A program made the position numbers and the translations under genes. Below, one piece after another: positions 2,765-8,139 of a stretch of 26,188 nucleotides of DNA. The number at the start of each line of letters is the position of its first letter. Positions within the stretch are counted from its first letter, which is position 1. The notes under the pieces are model-generated. The model had not been told where the DNA came from and did not search any database. It saw nothing but the letters and a program-made list of their open reading frames with translations. Location of the stretch: positions 1-26,188 of IMG/VR virus record IMGVR_UViG_3300029319_000427. One strand, 5' to 3'. The stretch comes from a virus.

Positions 2765-2795
2765 ATTATATAGGATTTTTTTGTGGGATTGTCAA
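2765..2795 (-). promoter_or_regulatory. Sigma70-like promoter for the leftward small-gene operon
   Basis: Reading the minus strand, a perfect -35 box TTGACA lies at 2795-2790, followed by 17 bases and TATATA at 2772-2767 (or TATAAT two bases further on). Transcription would start about 2758-2760 and reach the ribbon-helix-helix gene at 2740. The -35 box overlaps the start of the plus-strand gene at 2783/2795, and the palindromic TATATA could serve both directions. Confidence 0.75.
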
Positions 2796-3007
2796 TGATT
2801 AAATTTTTATTAGTAATGCAAATATGCTCAGGTCTATATGGTAACTGTATGCCAAAACAACCTATGGACTATTATAACACTTGGGCTGAGTGTTCTAGGC
2901 AAGGCACAATTAATACATTAGCTACTATCGATCTTTTAGGTGATGACTATATTAATACTAATAAAGTGTATGTAAAATTTACTTGTAGAGAAATAAATAC
3001 AACCTAG
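2783..3007 (+). CDS. 74-aa conserved small Cys protein on the opposite strand
   Basis: Two starts are possible: GTG at 2783, which has AGGA 7 bases upstream, and ATG at 2795, which gives MIKFLLVMQICSGLYGNC. The protein has a hydrophobic N-terminus, the YNTWAECSRQG segment and ends VYVKFTCREINTT. The overall pattern (hydrophobic start, C...G.C, W..C...G, then VKF.CRE) is one I know from short proteins scattered in marine phages, often single genes between larger blocks. It has cysteine pairs and a possible short signal. It is the only plus-strand gene before 15094 and overlaps its convergent neighbour by 4 bases. The function is unknown. Confidence 0.75.
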   Translation: MGLSMIKFLLVMQICSGLYGNCMPKQPMDYYNTWAECSRQGTINTLATIDLLGDDYINTNKVYVKFTCREINTT

Positions 3008-3288
3008 GGTTTATACATACTATATCTTAGCGTTAACTCTTTGTTTCTATCTATATCTTGTATTGTTTTTAAAAACCATTTGTTATCGTGTTGTTTTCTT
3101 TCACAATTAGGTTCTTCTGAATGATTGATCCAACCCCCTAATGGAGTTCTAATAAGATCATTGCCAACTTCAATATGTGTCATACCTATTGTTGTATCTT
3201 TTGGTATTTTTGCAAGACTATACAAACCTAACCCATGTATTTTAGATTTTTTTATAGTCAAATAAAAAGGTAATGGTTTATATTTCAT
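3004..3288 (-). CDS. SET-domain protein (minimal, 94 aa)
   Basis: The protein shows the ordered SET signatures: KKSKIHGLGLYS at 13-24 (entry motif SxIHGxGL), GGWINHSEEPNC at 51-62 (core NHSxxPN motif that binds S-adenosylmethionine) and a final ELTLRY at 84-89 (equivalent of GEELTxDY, carrying the catalytic tyrosine region). SET proteins are lysine methyltransferases using S-adenosylmethionine. At 94 residues this is about the shortest form; it lacks obvious pre-SET and post-SET parts and a SET-I insert. The substrate cannot be read from sequence; host ribosomal or DNA-binding proteins are possible. ATG overlaps the upstream stop (ATGA), and GGAG lies 10 bases before it. Confidence 0.82.
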   Translation of the reverse strand: MKYKPLPFYLTIKKSKIHGLGLYSLAKIPKDTTIGMTHIEVGNDLIRTPLGGWINHSEEPNCERKQHDNKWFLKTIQDIDRNKELTLRYSMYKP

Positions 3289-3500
3289 TTTGGTTCATCT
3301 CCGCCACAAACATAACCTATAACTCTTTTACCCTTATACATATGATAATAATGATTGCTCATAAAAGTTTTCTTTTGTTTTTCAACAGAAGTAATATTAG
3401 AATGAAACCAGCTGCTACATTCTTGATGTATTTCAAACGTATCTAACTTGATGTCTCCACCAAAAGTTAAATACATTAATGTAATCATTATAGGTTTCAT
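3285..3500 (-). CDS. 71-aa small Cys protein, unknown
   Basis: The product begins MKPIMITLMYLTFGGDIKLD, a semi-hydrophobic start too weak to be a clear signal peptide, continues with CSSWFHSN, and ends HYYHMYKGKRVIGYVCGGDE. The form (MITL.YLTF.GDIK.DTF...C..WF, then H.Y....VIGY.C) resembles small hypothetical proteins of marine phages and resembles in style the 74-aa gene at 2783, with a hydrophobic start and paired Cys. ATGA junctions join it to both neighbours. The role is unknown. Confidence 0.68.
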   Translation of the reverse strand: MKPIMITLMYLTFGGDIKLDTFEIHQECSSWFHSNITSVEKQKKTFMSNHYYHMYKGKRVIGYVCGGDEPK

Positions 3501-3726: not shown

Positions 3727-3934
3727 CCATAAACTCTCTTAAAGCCATTTTAGTATTACTGTCTACTTTCATATATTTTATTACACCATTAACTTTTTGT
3801 TCTATATCTTCACCGCAGTTAACACATCTATATATGTTTTCATAAACTTTAACTAACATACTTTTACAATTACACTCAGGACATTCTCCTGTTACGAGTT
3901 CTGTTCTAAATATTCCTGTCTCGTCTTGTTTCAT
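3719..3934 (-). CDS. 71-aa zinc-ribbon protein
   Basis: ATG at 3934 overlaps the endolysin stop (ATGA) and is preferred to a TTG three codons earlier. The protein has GECPECNC and, about 18 residues later, RCVNCGEDI: two CxxC knuckles of a rubredoxin/TFIIS-style zinc ribbon separated by a short beta hairpin (MLVKVYENIY). The following VNGVIKYMKVD would be the closing strand. Similar small ribbons are widespread in marine phages next to the endolysin gene. Possible roles are transcription-factor mimicry or nucleic-acid binding. Confidence 0.8.
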   Translation of the reverse strand: MKQDETGIFRTELVTGECPECNCKSMLVKVYENIYRCVNCGEDIEQKVNGVIKYMKVDSNTKMALREFMDG

Positions 3935-4401
3935 TCCAACCAAGGTGTGTAAGTAACTTTACCGTTAACTCTTTGTGCACGTAGCCATTGCTGTCTATTT
4001 TGATTACGTGAGTATGAGCAGTGTATCCAGCCCGATGTTGGTTCGCCGTCTTTGTAAAATTCGAGTATGCCTTGATCTACTTCTAAGTTCTGTCTAATCC
4101 ATCTTGCAAGTTCTCTATTGTCTACACCAGGTATTTCAAAATCTGCAGCAGCTGCTTCGTTGTCTGCCACGTGTTGGCTGTTAATCGAACTTCCAATTTC
4201 TATGCACAGCTGAGCACAACGGAAGCCTGATGATATAATTAATGGTTTATCGTAATGAGATCTAATAGGTTGCAATACATTTACTGCAAGAGCTTTTAAA
4301 TTTTCTATTTGCTCTGGTGATGGATTGTTATTAATACCTTTACGTTCGGCTGTTTGTGATTTAGTTAACTCATCAAGAGTTATGTTTGCTGTTAGTTTCA
4401 T
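3931..4401 (-). CDS. M15-family zinc peptidase, probable endolysin
   Basis: The protein is a D-Ala-D-Ala carboxypeptidase-like M15 enzyme. It contains LIISSGFRC at 54-62, then SQHVADNEAAAADFE at 75-89 (zinc ligands His77 and Asp87) and GWIHCSY at 124-130 (His127, third ligand). Glu113 or nearby acidic residues could be the base. In phages this family cuts peptidoglycan cross-bridges at lysis. The 156-residue length is normal for a single-domain M15 endolysin. There is no signal peptide, so release would depend on a holin, for which membrane-protein genes lie directly upstream. Confidence 0.88.
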   Translation of the reverse strand: MKLTANITLDELTKSQTAERKGINNNPSPEQIENLKALAVNVLQPIRSHYDKPLIISSGFRCAQLCIEIGSSINSQHVADNEAAAADFEIPGVDNRELARWIRQNLEVDQGILEFYKDGEPTSGWIHCSYSRNQNRQQWLRAQRVNGKVTYTPWLE

Positions 4402-4403
4402 AA

Positions 4404-4616
4404 TTATTCTAATATTAACGATTTTATTGTCTTTGTGCCATCAATATTTTCTTCTAAATTTGCTTTAGATCTAACACATTTATATTGTATATTTTCTTTA
4501 TATTGACGTTCTGCAACACGCTTATGACGTAAACATGTAGCCATGTTTTCTTGTATTCTGTGCTCCTTAATATCAGGGCCTATAAACATGAGGAGGGCTA
4601 TAATTTCTGCGACCAT
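4404..4616 (-). CDS. 70-aa membrane-anchored protein of the lysis region
   Basis: The N-terminus (MVAEIIALLMFIGPDIKEHR) is a short hydrophobic segment, either a signal anchor or a cleaved signal. Then follows a polar helix with two Cys (ATCLRHK, QYKCVRSK) that could pair outside the cytoplasm. It sits between a TM/coiled-coil gene and the endolysin, joined by a TAATG junction upstream and a 2-base gap downstream. It may be an i-spanin-like or other lysis accessory protein. This is inferred from position; no named family is recognised. Confidence 0.68.
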   Translation of the reverse strand: MVAEIIALLMFIGPDIKEHRIQENMATCLRHKRVAERQYKENIQYKCVRSKANLEENIDGTKTIKSLILE

Positions 4617-5026
4617 TATTTGCTCCCGTTCTGGTAGATTATTTCTCTGTTTTTATCTTTTAACATTTCAATATCTTTAAGAACTTTATCCATTTGTTTT
4701 TGTAAAAACTCAATATTAATTCTGTTGTTCATCATTTTATCAAGTTGTAAATTAATCTTATCCACGGACTTATACAAATCCTCCAACATCATAAATTGCT
4801 CGCTGTCTGCGGGTAAAGATCCCATTTCTCCACGTGGCCATTTTATTCTAAACTCTGTGTTCTCTTCAAGGTCTTTTTCCATAATTTTAATTTTAGTGTC
4901 AGCTATGTTTAATCTTTCTACAATTTGAAAATAACCCATTGTGCCGAGTGCAACGATGATTATTAAACTAACAACCGTCTTCATCGGCATCTGTACGGCA
5001 GCGGATTCTGATATTTTTAGTGCCAT
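4616..5026 (-). CDS. 136-aa single-TM, coiled-coil protein
   Basis: Residues 1-14 are a short N-terminal arm (MALKISESAAVQMP), 15-33 form a transmembrane helix (MKTVVSLIIIVALGTMGYF), and 34-57 and 85-130 are long coiled-coil-like helices. Between lies a conserved-looking motif (TEFRIKWPRGEMGSLPADSE at 57-76). The 'FRIKWPRGE.GSLPADSEQF' motif is known to me from hypothetical proteins of many marine phages, including cyanophages. N-in/C-out topology with a periplasmic coiled coil resembles an inner-membrane spanin subunit, but the WPRGE block is not a spanin feature. The location next to the endolysin supports a lysis role. Confidence 0.78.
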   Translation of the reverse strand: MALKISESAAVQMPMKTVVSLIIIVALGTMGYFQIVERLNIADTKIKIMEKDLEENTEFRIKWPRGEMGSLPADSEQFMMLEDLYKSVDKINLQLDKMMNNRINIEFLQKQMDKVLKDIEMLKDKNREIIYQNGSK

Positions 5027-5280
5027 TAGTTTGCTAGTGGATTTTTGCTACTCGCTTTCAGTTCTTGTATTTCCAATTCTAATACTTGAATTGTTTTTTG
5101 TAGAACTGCAATGTCTTTTTTATTCTCACCTAATACTTGTACTATTGGATCTGGATTAAATGCTTCCATACTATCTAACTTAGACATTACTTCACCATAC
5201 TTAATAAACCCAGCACCTATTGCACCTAAGACACCAATTAAAGCAGCCACTCCTGCTAATTGTTCTTTTATTTTACCCAT
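5026..5280 (-). CDS. 84-aa TM plus coiled-coil protein, possible holin
   Basis: Residues 8-26 are a Gly/Ala-rich transmembrane helix (LAGVAALIGVLGAIGAGFI), followed by a soluble part with a coiled coil at 52-76 (ENKKDIAVLQKTIQVLELEI). A small, Gly/Ala-rich single-pass protein upstream of the endolysin is a candidate pinholin or spanin-type protein. It overlaps the preceding gene by 8 bases and forms a TAATG junction with the next. No named family is recognised, so the lysis role is contextual. Confidence 0.68.
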   Translation of the reverse strand: MGKIKEQLAGVAALIGVLGAIGAGFIKYGEVMSKLDSMEAFNPDPIVQVLGENKKDIAVLQKTIQVLELEIQELKASSKNPLAN

Positions 5281-6784
5281 TTGTTAATACCTCTATCTCT
5301 CTTATCAATTTTTGTTTTTCAAGTCTAATACTATTAATCTCGTTTTGTTTAGTAAAAATAGGGTCATTTTGTTGATATTCTGCAAGATTTCTAGTGTAGA
5401 TTAACCTGTTGTCGAATATATTTAATTGATCCTCATATATCTTTTCTTCTTTATAAAACGGAACATTATAAGTTAACAAGATAGAATTGTCTACCATTGC
5501 GTTTATTTTTATAAAATTTTTTGCTTGCAAATTTTTGTCTATTTCTTTAATCTTTTCGTCAATTTTATCTAAAGTTTTAACAAGTCTTGCATCTGCTTTA
5601 GCCTCACGTATTTTTTCTTTTTGTTCTTTTCTACTCTCTGTCTTAGATTCGGCTGTTCTAGTAGGCTCTTCGCTATTGGATTCCTCTGCAATTTCTTCTG
5701 TTTTTTCTTCTTCTTTTTCTTCATTTTCTACCACCTCCATTTGCTTGTTCATTATGGGTTTTTCTTCTTTTTCCTCTTTTAATTCTTCAAATTCCTCAAC
5801 CACTTCCATAACCATCTCTTCTTTTTCTTCTATAAACTCTTCAAATTCTTCTACTATTTCCATAGGCATCTCTTCTTTTAATTCTTCAAATGTTTCTAAT
5901 ACTTCTAACTTGGTCATTTTAGGTTCTTCTTCCATAGGAGGTGGTAACATTTCTATTATCTCAAATATTTCAAACACCTCTTCCATTTCAATTTCTTCTT
6001 TAATTTCAAATTCTTCTTTAAAATTTAATTCTACGATTTGTTCTATTTCTTCAAACTCTTCAAATAGTTCTTCAAATACTTCTGTTATTTCTGTTTGTAT
6101 TGCTGGTGGTAATGGTGTGTAATCAATATCCAATAATGTTGCTGTAAGTTCTGCACCAACCAAATTGGGCCCTATGGCTGCTGTAGAACTAGTATTGCCA
6201 CCATCTATTCCTCGCCACTCCCAACTCCAGTTTCTTGCTCCTGTGCCATTATGAATAACGGTATCTGTGTAAGTAAATGTATTGCTATAATAGCCAGCAT
6301 CATTATTTCTATTTTGAGTTACGCTGCCTAAAACACCATTAGATTCATCTAATATTTTTACAGTTGTTGAGTAACTATCTCTTTGTCCACCACCAGAAGA
6401 TGCTTGACCACATTGGTGAGCAGATCCCACCCACTCACAGTTTTGTACTTCTGTTGTAGAGTTTAATCTTACTCCGCCATCTAAACTGTTCGCTGTAGTT
6501 GTAAACTGACCACTGTTTTCTTTTTCTGTTGTGATGTTTAATAAAGAACCATTTGCAGATACAGTCCCTGTTCCTGTCGCCTCTATCTCGTTTGGATAGT
6601 ATGTTGTGCCAGACATTGTCCAATTACTAGTGCTGTTAAAACCATCAATAGAGCCACTAGAATTTTGTAAACTAGTTTGTCCTGTGCCTGCGTTGGGTAA
6701 TAGATTGCCTGATGTAGCTGTCTCTGCGTTACTTTTTAGTGTTATCGATAACAGGATCAATAATGATAGCGTTAGCTTTAGCAT
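5273..6784 (-). CDS. 503-aa exported protein with a Glu-rich, Asp-free segment
   Basis: Residues 1-20 are a signal peptide (ending LKSNA, cleavage before ETAT). Residues 21-222 are Ser/Thr/Gly/Asn-rich with alternating hydrophobics, suggesting a beta-sandwich (NLLPNAGTG at 27-35; two Cys in CEWVGSAHQC at 116-125). Residues 231-370 hold 59 Glu and no Asp in 140 positions, with repeated EEFEELKEE-like phrases. Residues 380-425 are a basic coiled coil, and a final helical part ends at 503. AGGAGG lies 3 bases before the ATG, inside the end of the upstream gene (56-base overlap). The protein should be periplasmic or outer-surface. No function is recognised; a virion, lysis-stage or surface-modifying role is possible. 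Confidence 0.75.
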   Translation of the reverse strand: MLKLTLSLLILLSITLKSNAETATSGNLLPNAGTGQTSLQNSSGSIDGFNSTSNWTMSGTTYYPNEIEATGTGTVSANGSLLNITTEKENSGQFTTTANSLDGGVRLNSTTEVQNCEWVGSAHQCGQASSGGGQRDSYSTTVKILDESNGVLGSVTQNRNNDAGYYSNTFTYTDTVIHNGTGARNWSWEWRGIDGGNTSSTAAIGPNLVGAELTATLLDIDYTPLPPAIQTEITEVFEELFEEFEEIEQIVELNFKEEFEIKEEIEMEEVFEIFEIIEMLPPPMEEEPKMTKLEVLETFEELKEEMPMEIVEEFEEFIEEKEEMVMEVVEEFEELKEEKEEKPIMNKQMEVVENEEKEEEKTEEIAEESNSEEPTRTAESKTESRKEQKEKIREAKADARLVKTLDKIDEKIKEIDKNLQAKNFIKINAMVDNSILLTYNVPFYKEEKIYEDQLNIFDNRLIYTRNLAEYQQNDPIFTKQNEINSIRLEKQKLIREIEVLTNG

Positions 6785-7438: not shown

Positions 7439-7496
7439 GTTTTTTAAACAACCACTCTGTGTATCTTTTCCACAGGTTTTTAATCCATTTAATCAT
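7431..7496 (-). CDS. 21-aa basic amphipathic micro-peptide
   Basis: The ATG at 7496 has GAGGAG 8 bases upstream, better than most genes here, and overlaps the stop of the 216-aa gene. The peptide (MIKWIKNLWKRY then TEWLFKKHE) has three Trp, seven Lys/Arg and hydrophobics spaced for an amphipathic helix. The strong ribosome binding site may instead serve the Cys-rich ORF that starts inside its last codons. Membrane-surface binding is plausible; expression is unproven. Confidence 0.45.
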   Translation of the reverse strand: MIKWIKNLWKRYTEWLFKKHE

Positions 7497-8139
7497 TTTT
7501 TTTCTCCTCAATTTCATAGAAGAACTTATCAGTGTCTTCCGTTTTCCATTTACGAGTGTCCTCTACATTCCATTCGGATGTTTGGACTTTCCAATCAGGA
7601 ACTTCATCTTTAACTGTAAAAGATGGTATATCCCATATTAGTCTATTGTTTGGCTGAGCCGCATAGTTGCCATCGTCTAAAGCAAGTATGTGTGCGCACT
7701 TATGTTCGTGCGGAATTTCAGAATGATCTGTATCTATTATATTACTCTCTGGGTGAGCAAAGTCAACTGTGAAAAGATAAGCACCTGCGTGCCATTTTTT
7801 ATCTTTTCCTATGTATTTACCAGATTGTCCGTCTAAGATATCCCAACTAGTAACAGCAGGATAATAACTGAAAGAATTCCATAACTCCAACTCGTCCAGT
7901 CTATACCTAGGAACGTCCTCTGGTTTAAACCCTCTTTGAATAAACGCAGAAATTGGAAGTCTATAGAAAATCGCGCCGTTTTCCATAATTGCATGAAATA
8001 AAATTGGACGACCCGTAATGCAGGTAATACCAAAGATAATGCAATCTTCAACTTCGCCATGATGTTTTTTAAGGTCATATAAATATTCTCTCCTTATTTG
8101 AGAGTATGTTACAGGAATATTTGCATTTAAATAAGCCAT
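7489..8139 (-). CDS. 216-aa conserved phage protein, unknown
   Basis: A soluble protein beginning MAYLNANIPVTYSQIRREYL and containing HGEVEDCIIFGITCITGRP, HAIMENGAIFYRLP, SYYPAVTSWD, HEHKCAHILALDDGNYAAQP and a Trp-rich tail (WKVQTSEWNVED). This whole layout is one I recognise from conserved hypothetical proteins of marine phages, consistently near DNA-replication genes. I know no function. Conserved His/Asp/Glu clusters (HEHKC, DDGN) would allow a metal site, but no catalytic motif is clear. It follows the polymerase gene by two bases and is probably co-transcribed with it. Confidence 0.82.
   Translation of the reverse strand: MAYLNANIPVTYSQIRREYLYDLKKHHGEVEDCIIFGITCITGRPILFHAIMENGAIFYRLPISAFIQRGFKPEDVPRYRLDELELWNSFSYYPAVTSWDILDGQSGKYIGKDKKWHAGAYLFTVDFAHPESNIIDTDHSEIPHEHKCAHILALDDGNYAAQPNNRLIWDIPSFTVKDEVPDWKVQTSEWNVEDTRKWKTEDTDKFFYEIEEKKND

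Follow-up and report, generated by a model that had tools for sequence, protein, structure and literature searches.

A very small SET-domain protein of a marine phage, a candidate methyltransferase from a family of ocean phages and bacteria

A 94-amino-acid protein encoded in a 26,188-base IMG/VR virus record, the whole of which is referred to here as the window, is almost certainly a genuine SET-fold protein of very small size. The family of which it is a member is large, coherent and essentially unstudied and occurs in ocean phages and bacteria. The reading that we moderately favour is that this mini-SET protein is a stand-alone, stripped-down SAM-dependent methyltransferase, the product of an accessory gene, which would most likely modify a lysine of a host protein. 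SET enzymes are known chiefly from eukaryotic chromatin, and the prokaryotic ones have few known substrates. The family described here is very common, conserved and close to minimal; it is shared between phages of the ocean and bacteria that rank among the most abundant on Earth, and its members are mostly annotated as 'hypothetical protein'; its substrate would reveal roles of SET domains outside chromatin and the benefit that phages draw from them. Being one of the smallest SET domains in nature, the protein bears on the minimal requirements of the fold.

The SET gene and the phage that carries it

The SET-like open reading frame (ORF) occupies positions 3004-3288 on the minus strand and starts with ATG. 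It and its neighbours in the window are:

2783..3007, plus strand: convergent 74-aa ORF with several Cys residues, which shares 4 bases with the 3' end of the SET gene
3004..3288, minus strand: 94-aa SET-domain protein (Pfam SET, phrog_28741, AlphaFold2, Foldseek, conservation, dN/dS)
3285..3500, minus strand: 71-aa small ORF immediately upstream of the SET gene, with Cys residues and a hydrophobic N-terminus
3931..4401, minus strand: M15-type peptidoglycan peptidase (endolysin; PF08291, E=1.5e-19; phrog_894 endolysin, E=1.6e-39)
4404..5026, minus strand: two small conserved ORFs (70 aa; 136 aa) between the endolysin and a large acidic protein

A preliminary description, which was made from the DNA letters, had picked out the motifs HGLG, NHSEEPNC and ELTLRY in the order typical of SET domains, and they are indeed found in this order at residues 18-21, 55-62 and 84-89. 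The SAM-binding and catalytic motifs of the protein comprise HGLG (18-21), RTPLGGWINH (47-56), ELTLRY (84-89) and Tyr92. The SET assignment had been left to a profile search as its test, and the search returned Pfam SET (PF00856) with E=2.1e-8 and 35 bits, above the curated cut-off of 22.4; the same family is matched by all 14 members of the first family alignment. A full-length match was also obtained to phrog_28741 (E=3.2e-23), which has no function assigned and is the phage mini-SET family itself. The gene is under purifying selection, with a dN/dS of about 0.08-0.19 against its closest relatives. A chance occurrence of the motifs is ruled out by the Pfam match, the predicted fold and the dN/dS values.

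The start of the SET gene overlaps the stop of the 71-aa ORF by 4 bases (ATGA), and the endolysin gene (3931-4401), which has the same orientation, is found some 640 bases upstream of the SET gene. The coupling to a small Cys-containing ORF near a lysis gene, which had been described before, is therefore real in this phage. The 71-aa ORF has no Pfam family match; its homologues lie at most two genes away from the SET gene in 9/9 non-redundant loci that have them. There are 18 related loci with a member of the small family of the convergent 74-aa ORF, in one orientation or the other, and the 136-aa ORF has an N-terminal hydrophobic segment and matches phrog_20984.

The window encodes a DNA polymerase A that shares 62-64% identity with its counterparts in phage 023Pt_psg01 and Pelagibacter phage HTVC027P and 55% with that of HTVC023P, which makes a SAR11-type host likely; a megablast search of the window against phage records gave no close DNA relative. 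The phage is a marine one and probably infects a SAR11-like ocean bacterium. Elsewhere in the window and likewise on the minus strand, a 109-aa ORF (1021-1350) resembles LAGLIDADG endonucleases (PF00961, E=1e-6) and is apparently free-standing. A 503-aa protein (5273-6784), with the polymerase side on one flank and the lysis genes on the other, carries a long Glu-rich stretch (EEFEE/EEKEE) and has no significant PHROG match. A 216-aa protein (7489-8139) matches phrog_3704 (E=1.6e-71), which bears the PHROGs label 'ferredoxin'; this label looks doubtful, since no Pfam match was obtained at 0.001.

Conservation and predicted fold of the family

Scanning with short stretches of the 94-aa protein yielded 20 viral relatives, and scanning with an alignment yielded at least 592 viral loci, the best 80 of which were kept for analysis. 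The alignment scan of species-representative genomes gave 27 loci, and the family is also found in SAR11, Porticoccaceae, SAR86 and other marine genomes. Relatives in named phages include those of Pelagibacter phage Kolga EXVC016S (47%), cyanophages P-RSM6 and P-SSM7 and marine virus AG-345-P14, and more distant ones are present in Pseudoalteromonas phage PH1 and Synechococcus phage SynMITS9220M01; where annotated, they are called 'hypothetical protein'. Phage PH1 encodes a 276-aa protein (L026:3455-4285) with a SET domain fused to its C-terminal part. The 87 non-redundant family sequences have 93-113 amino acids with a median of 99. The earlier view of free-standing phage versions as short and poorly characterised thus holds for the family, and the literature searched contained no paper linking a SET domain with pelagiphages, cyanophages or auxiliary metabolic genes.

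The family shares the signature RTP[LV]GGx-x-NH ... E-[LI]-x-x-x-Y, and it has the conserved GxG, Asn-His and terminal Tyr of SET domains. Eight positions outside the search patterns, namely Y3, L6, S15, G21, G35, H38, E84 and Y89, are invariant in 87/87 sequences. The same count was obtained for R47, P49, L50, G51, G52, N55, H56 and N61, where the invariance from R47 to N61, including that of N55 and H56, is partly circular, as these residues are covered by the patterns used for scanning (RTPLGGF; NHS) and for extraction (LGG..NH). G19 is kept in 83/87 and Tyr92 in 85/87 sequences, and the Ser of NHS is variable (70/87). Five relatives that fail the extraction pattern were read separately; four of them keep NH, with PVGG in place of PLGG, and one has NY (L060). 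Apart from this exception, close homologues retain the Asn-His pair and the Tyr, the invariance of which had been named as a check.

Structure prediction, also suggested earlier, gave the beta-clip fold of SET domains. The AlphaFold2 model reached a pLDDT of 76.5 with 10 sequences and a pLDDT of 92.3 with a pTM of 0.81 when an alignment of 77 sequences was used, and in Foldseek searches of the PDB, both models matched SET/PR domains. The better model had 256 PDB matches at E<=0.001, the 50 best of which are all SET/PR domains. The best fits in size are the chlorovirus protein vSET (3kma; TM 0.76 by query and 0.68 by target) and Plasmodium PFL0690c (0.76/0.64). In a viral structure library, nearly all significant named matches are SET proteins, mostly of giant viruses; several entries named 'SET domain containing protein' come from uncultured Caudovirales phages, so phage SET proteins have been annotated as such before. 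The best viral fold match is A0A218ML49, a 971-aa uncultured-virus protein with a SET domain. A profile of the 14-member alignment matched 108 distinct PDB sequences at E<=0.01, and SET-domain methyltransferases make up essentially all of the matches listed, with KMT2/MLL proteins and vSET among them.

The KMT2/MLL histone lysine methyltransferases are the best sequence-profile and fold matches and share the GxG, NHS..PN and ELxxxY core with the phage protein, but they have a SET-I region of about 22 residues and a post-SET region, both of which are missing from it. In the alignment with MLL3, the roughly 22 residues of SET-I fall between two aligned segments and have no counterpart in the phage protein, which lacks a normal SET-I substrate-binding subdomain; the AlphaFold2 model has only a beta hairpin (33-47) and a 4-residue helix at this position. 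Only five residues and no Cys follow Tyr89, and hence there is no post-SET zinc motif to close the C-terminus; residues 92-94 have a pLDDT below 50. The pocket might be completed by the N-terminal Y-x-x-L, which is invariant, and by Tyr92, which is nearly so. A close known counterpart is vSET (Paramecium bursaria chlorella virus 1 A612L; PDB 1N3J, 3KMA), likewise a virus-encoded, stand-alone, minimal SET protein, which was matched by the profile with E=1.5e-6 and is 18% identical in the structural alignment. With 119 aa, however, vSET is 25 aa longer than the phage protein, and its host is a eukaryote with histones.

Gene neighbourhoods and cellular relatives

In other phages, the SET gene has entirely different neighbours. 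It lies next to a gene for an AAA protein in Kolga, to gp25 and a baseplate wedge gene in P-RSM6, and to nrdB and a small ORF in P-SSM7. In one viral group (L008, L009, L010, L014, L016), it is flanked on one side by an ArdC-type anti-restriction/metallopeptidase gene and on the other by a ParB-like gene, and in another set of loci (L049, L072, L094, L104), genes nearby encode a phage exonuclease-like family and either an SLT lysozyme or a holin. The commonest neighbour families each occur in at most 14 of the 87 non-redundant loci. A conserved partner gene that would name the substrate is ruled out, as none of the neighbour families recurs across phage groups. The suggestion that the lysis cassette hints at the substrate therefore did not hold up: family members in other phages adjoin baseplate, nrdB, ArdC, ParB-like and nuclease genes, and because the neighbours differ completely among phage groups, the lysis neighbourhood says little about what is modified. 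The neighbourhoods show the pattern of a movable accessory gene.

Many matches to 'genome' contigs probably stem from phage contigs that ended up in the bins of metagenome-assembled genomes (MAGs), and presence in a host was therefore counted only with flanking host genes; on one MAG contig (L109), for example, the SET protein is nearly identical to that of phage Kolga. A longer family member with the same signature is present in about 26 of 197 sampled Pelagibacteraceae genomes and has 123-146 aa in those that were read. These SAR11 chromosomal proteins share the RTPLGG signature with the phage protein, from the N-terminal Y-x-PLP to the final Y-x-x-Y; unlike it, they carry an insert of 20-45 aa after NHS..PN and usually a C-terminal tail, and they are encoded in a metabolic operon. 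The start codon of the SET gene overlaps the stop of the alanine dehydrogenase gene in several loci, which places it in the operon. Among the 14 loci read, the clusters contain alanine dehydrogenase (11/14), an AptA-type omega-aminotransferase (10/14), a FAD/GcvT-type demethylase-like protein (9/14) and a sulfonate/taurine-type binding protein (6/14). L141 and L150 have a Rieske protein resembling betaine monooxygenase instead, and a DddP-like protein is encoded in L141, L150 and L140; alanine dehydrogenase (in the scanned example) and the omega-aminotransferase score above the NCBIfam cut-offs, the binding protein and the DddP-like protein below them. The SET gene (L139:4260-4700, L141:3635-4075, L149:3893-4333; also L140, L142 and L150-L158) mostly follows directly after the alanine dehydrogenase and omega-aminotransferase genes and often precedes the FAD/GcvT demethylase-like gene. 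As judged from these gene contents, the SAR11 SET gene sits in a putative amine/sulfonate-catabolism cluster. In Porticoccaceae, a SET gene is present in 7/98 sampled genomes, and most of the loci read have it after fabA-fabB. In L122 (3087-5285), L126 and L127, the opposite strand carries a peroxiredoxin gene as well as a single-strand-binding-like gene.

A tree of the family, based on 100 columns, has a mostly viral and a mostly cellular side, with weak support for the deepest fork (76/90). The window protein is placed among other viral sequences, the SAR11 chromosomal copies group apart with good support and close to further copies from cells, and the Porticoccaceae-type copies form one well supported group. 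This separation speaks against descent of the window gene from a present-day SAR11 host copy, but with the deepest fork being weak, transfer may have gone in either direction.

Proposed activity and substrate

In SET enzymes, the Asn contacts the amino group of SAM and the His its adenosyl part, and the Tyr hydroxyl lies near the target nitrogen (PMC1282579). Since Asn, His and Tyr are all kept, a working methyltransferase is the best reading of the phage protein, and catalytic activity appears likely. SAM would be bound through the GxG and Asn-His motifs, and the substrate nitrogen would be placed beside Tyr89, followed by methyl transfer. As SET-I is reduced to a hairpin and there is no post-SET, the substrate groove needs to be completed from elsewhere. 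The invariant N-terminus (Y-x-x-L-P) together with Tyr92 might do this, or the missing part might come from homodimer formation, as seen for vSET, or from the substrate protein. The most likely substrate would be a lysine of an abundant host protein that is methylated during infection; for protein lysine as such, the chances seem evenly balanced. The matches to PR-domain folds, the absence of conserved neighbours and the SAR11 metabolic context count against the reading as a methyltransferase of host-protein lysine.

PR domains, too, match the AlphaFold2 fold of the protein, and some PR/SET domains are non-catalytic. A non-catalytic SET fold that serves as a SAM- or ligand-binding module, e.g., as a regulator or as a SAM sink against host restriction, would suit a very small protein without SET-I and post-SET and the ArdC-type anti-restriction gene adjoining the SET gene in one phage group. 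However, a family that is otherwise highly variable retains the catalytic Tyr and the Asn-His pair with hardly any exceptions, and this role is considered improbable. It also seems rather unlikely that the enzyme modifies a phage protein of the virion, lysis or replication machinery rather than a host protein. Translational coupling to the small Cys ORF and the adjoining endolysin in the window, the SLT-lysozyme or holin genes nearby in another phage group and the gp25 and baseplate wedge genes of P-RSM6 would agree with such a target; yet no single phage protein family accompanies the SET gene across groups (at most 14/87 loci each), and the family also occurs on bacterial chromosomes without phage genes.

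Methylation of a free amine or thioether related to amino acids or osmolytes, which would alter one-carbon, nitrogen or sulfur metabolism of the host, is regarded as unlikely but is the main competing reading and has a precedent. The 172-aa SET protein BurB of Burkholderia thailandensis, for which crystal structures are available (9L4T, 9L4V), converts free methionine to S-methylmethionine (PMC12542666). The SAR11 family members cluster with alanine dehydrogenase, omega-aminotransferase, FAD/GcvT-type demethylase-like and, in some cases, Rieske/betaine-monooxygenase-like and DddP-like genes, and such small-molecule pathways would fit poorly with a protein substrate; moreover, a 94-aa protein without SET-I offers little surface to grip a peptide. 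On the other hand, the phage copies do not lie beside such metabolic genes. The hydroxyl of the active-site Tyr is dispensable in BurB, where Y124F keeps more than 60% of the activity (PMC12542666), whereas Tyr89 is invariant in the mini-SET family. BurB is a tetrameric bacterial SET-fold enzyme that sets a precedent for a non-protein substrate, and membership of the phage protein in its family was rejected because the family profile shows no similarity to it: 9L4T and 9L4V are not among the PDB matches at E<=10, in a local PDB copy that may not hold both entries. The comparison is thus one of analogy. Tentatively, and with a low probability, the RTPLGG mini-SET proteins might represent a non-chromatin SET branch whose methylation target in marine bacteria is a metabolite or a single specific metabolic enzyme, with phages carrying a trimmed version; phages would then redirect one-carbon, amine or sulfur metabolism of the host during infection.

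A different, ordinary SET protein of 150-170 aa with a post-SET CxC...C motif was seen in L145 (3075-3566) and in L143, L144, L147 and L148, and it occurs in many other Pelagibacteraceae genomes. The gene following it in L145 reads like a member of the histone-deacetylase/acetoin-utilisation family, with no NCBIfam match at 1e-10.
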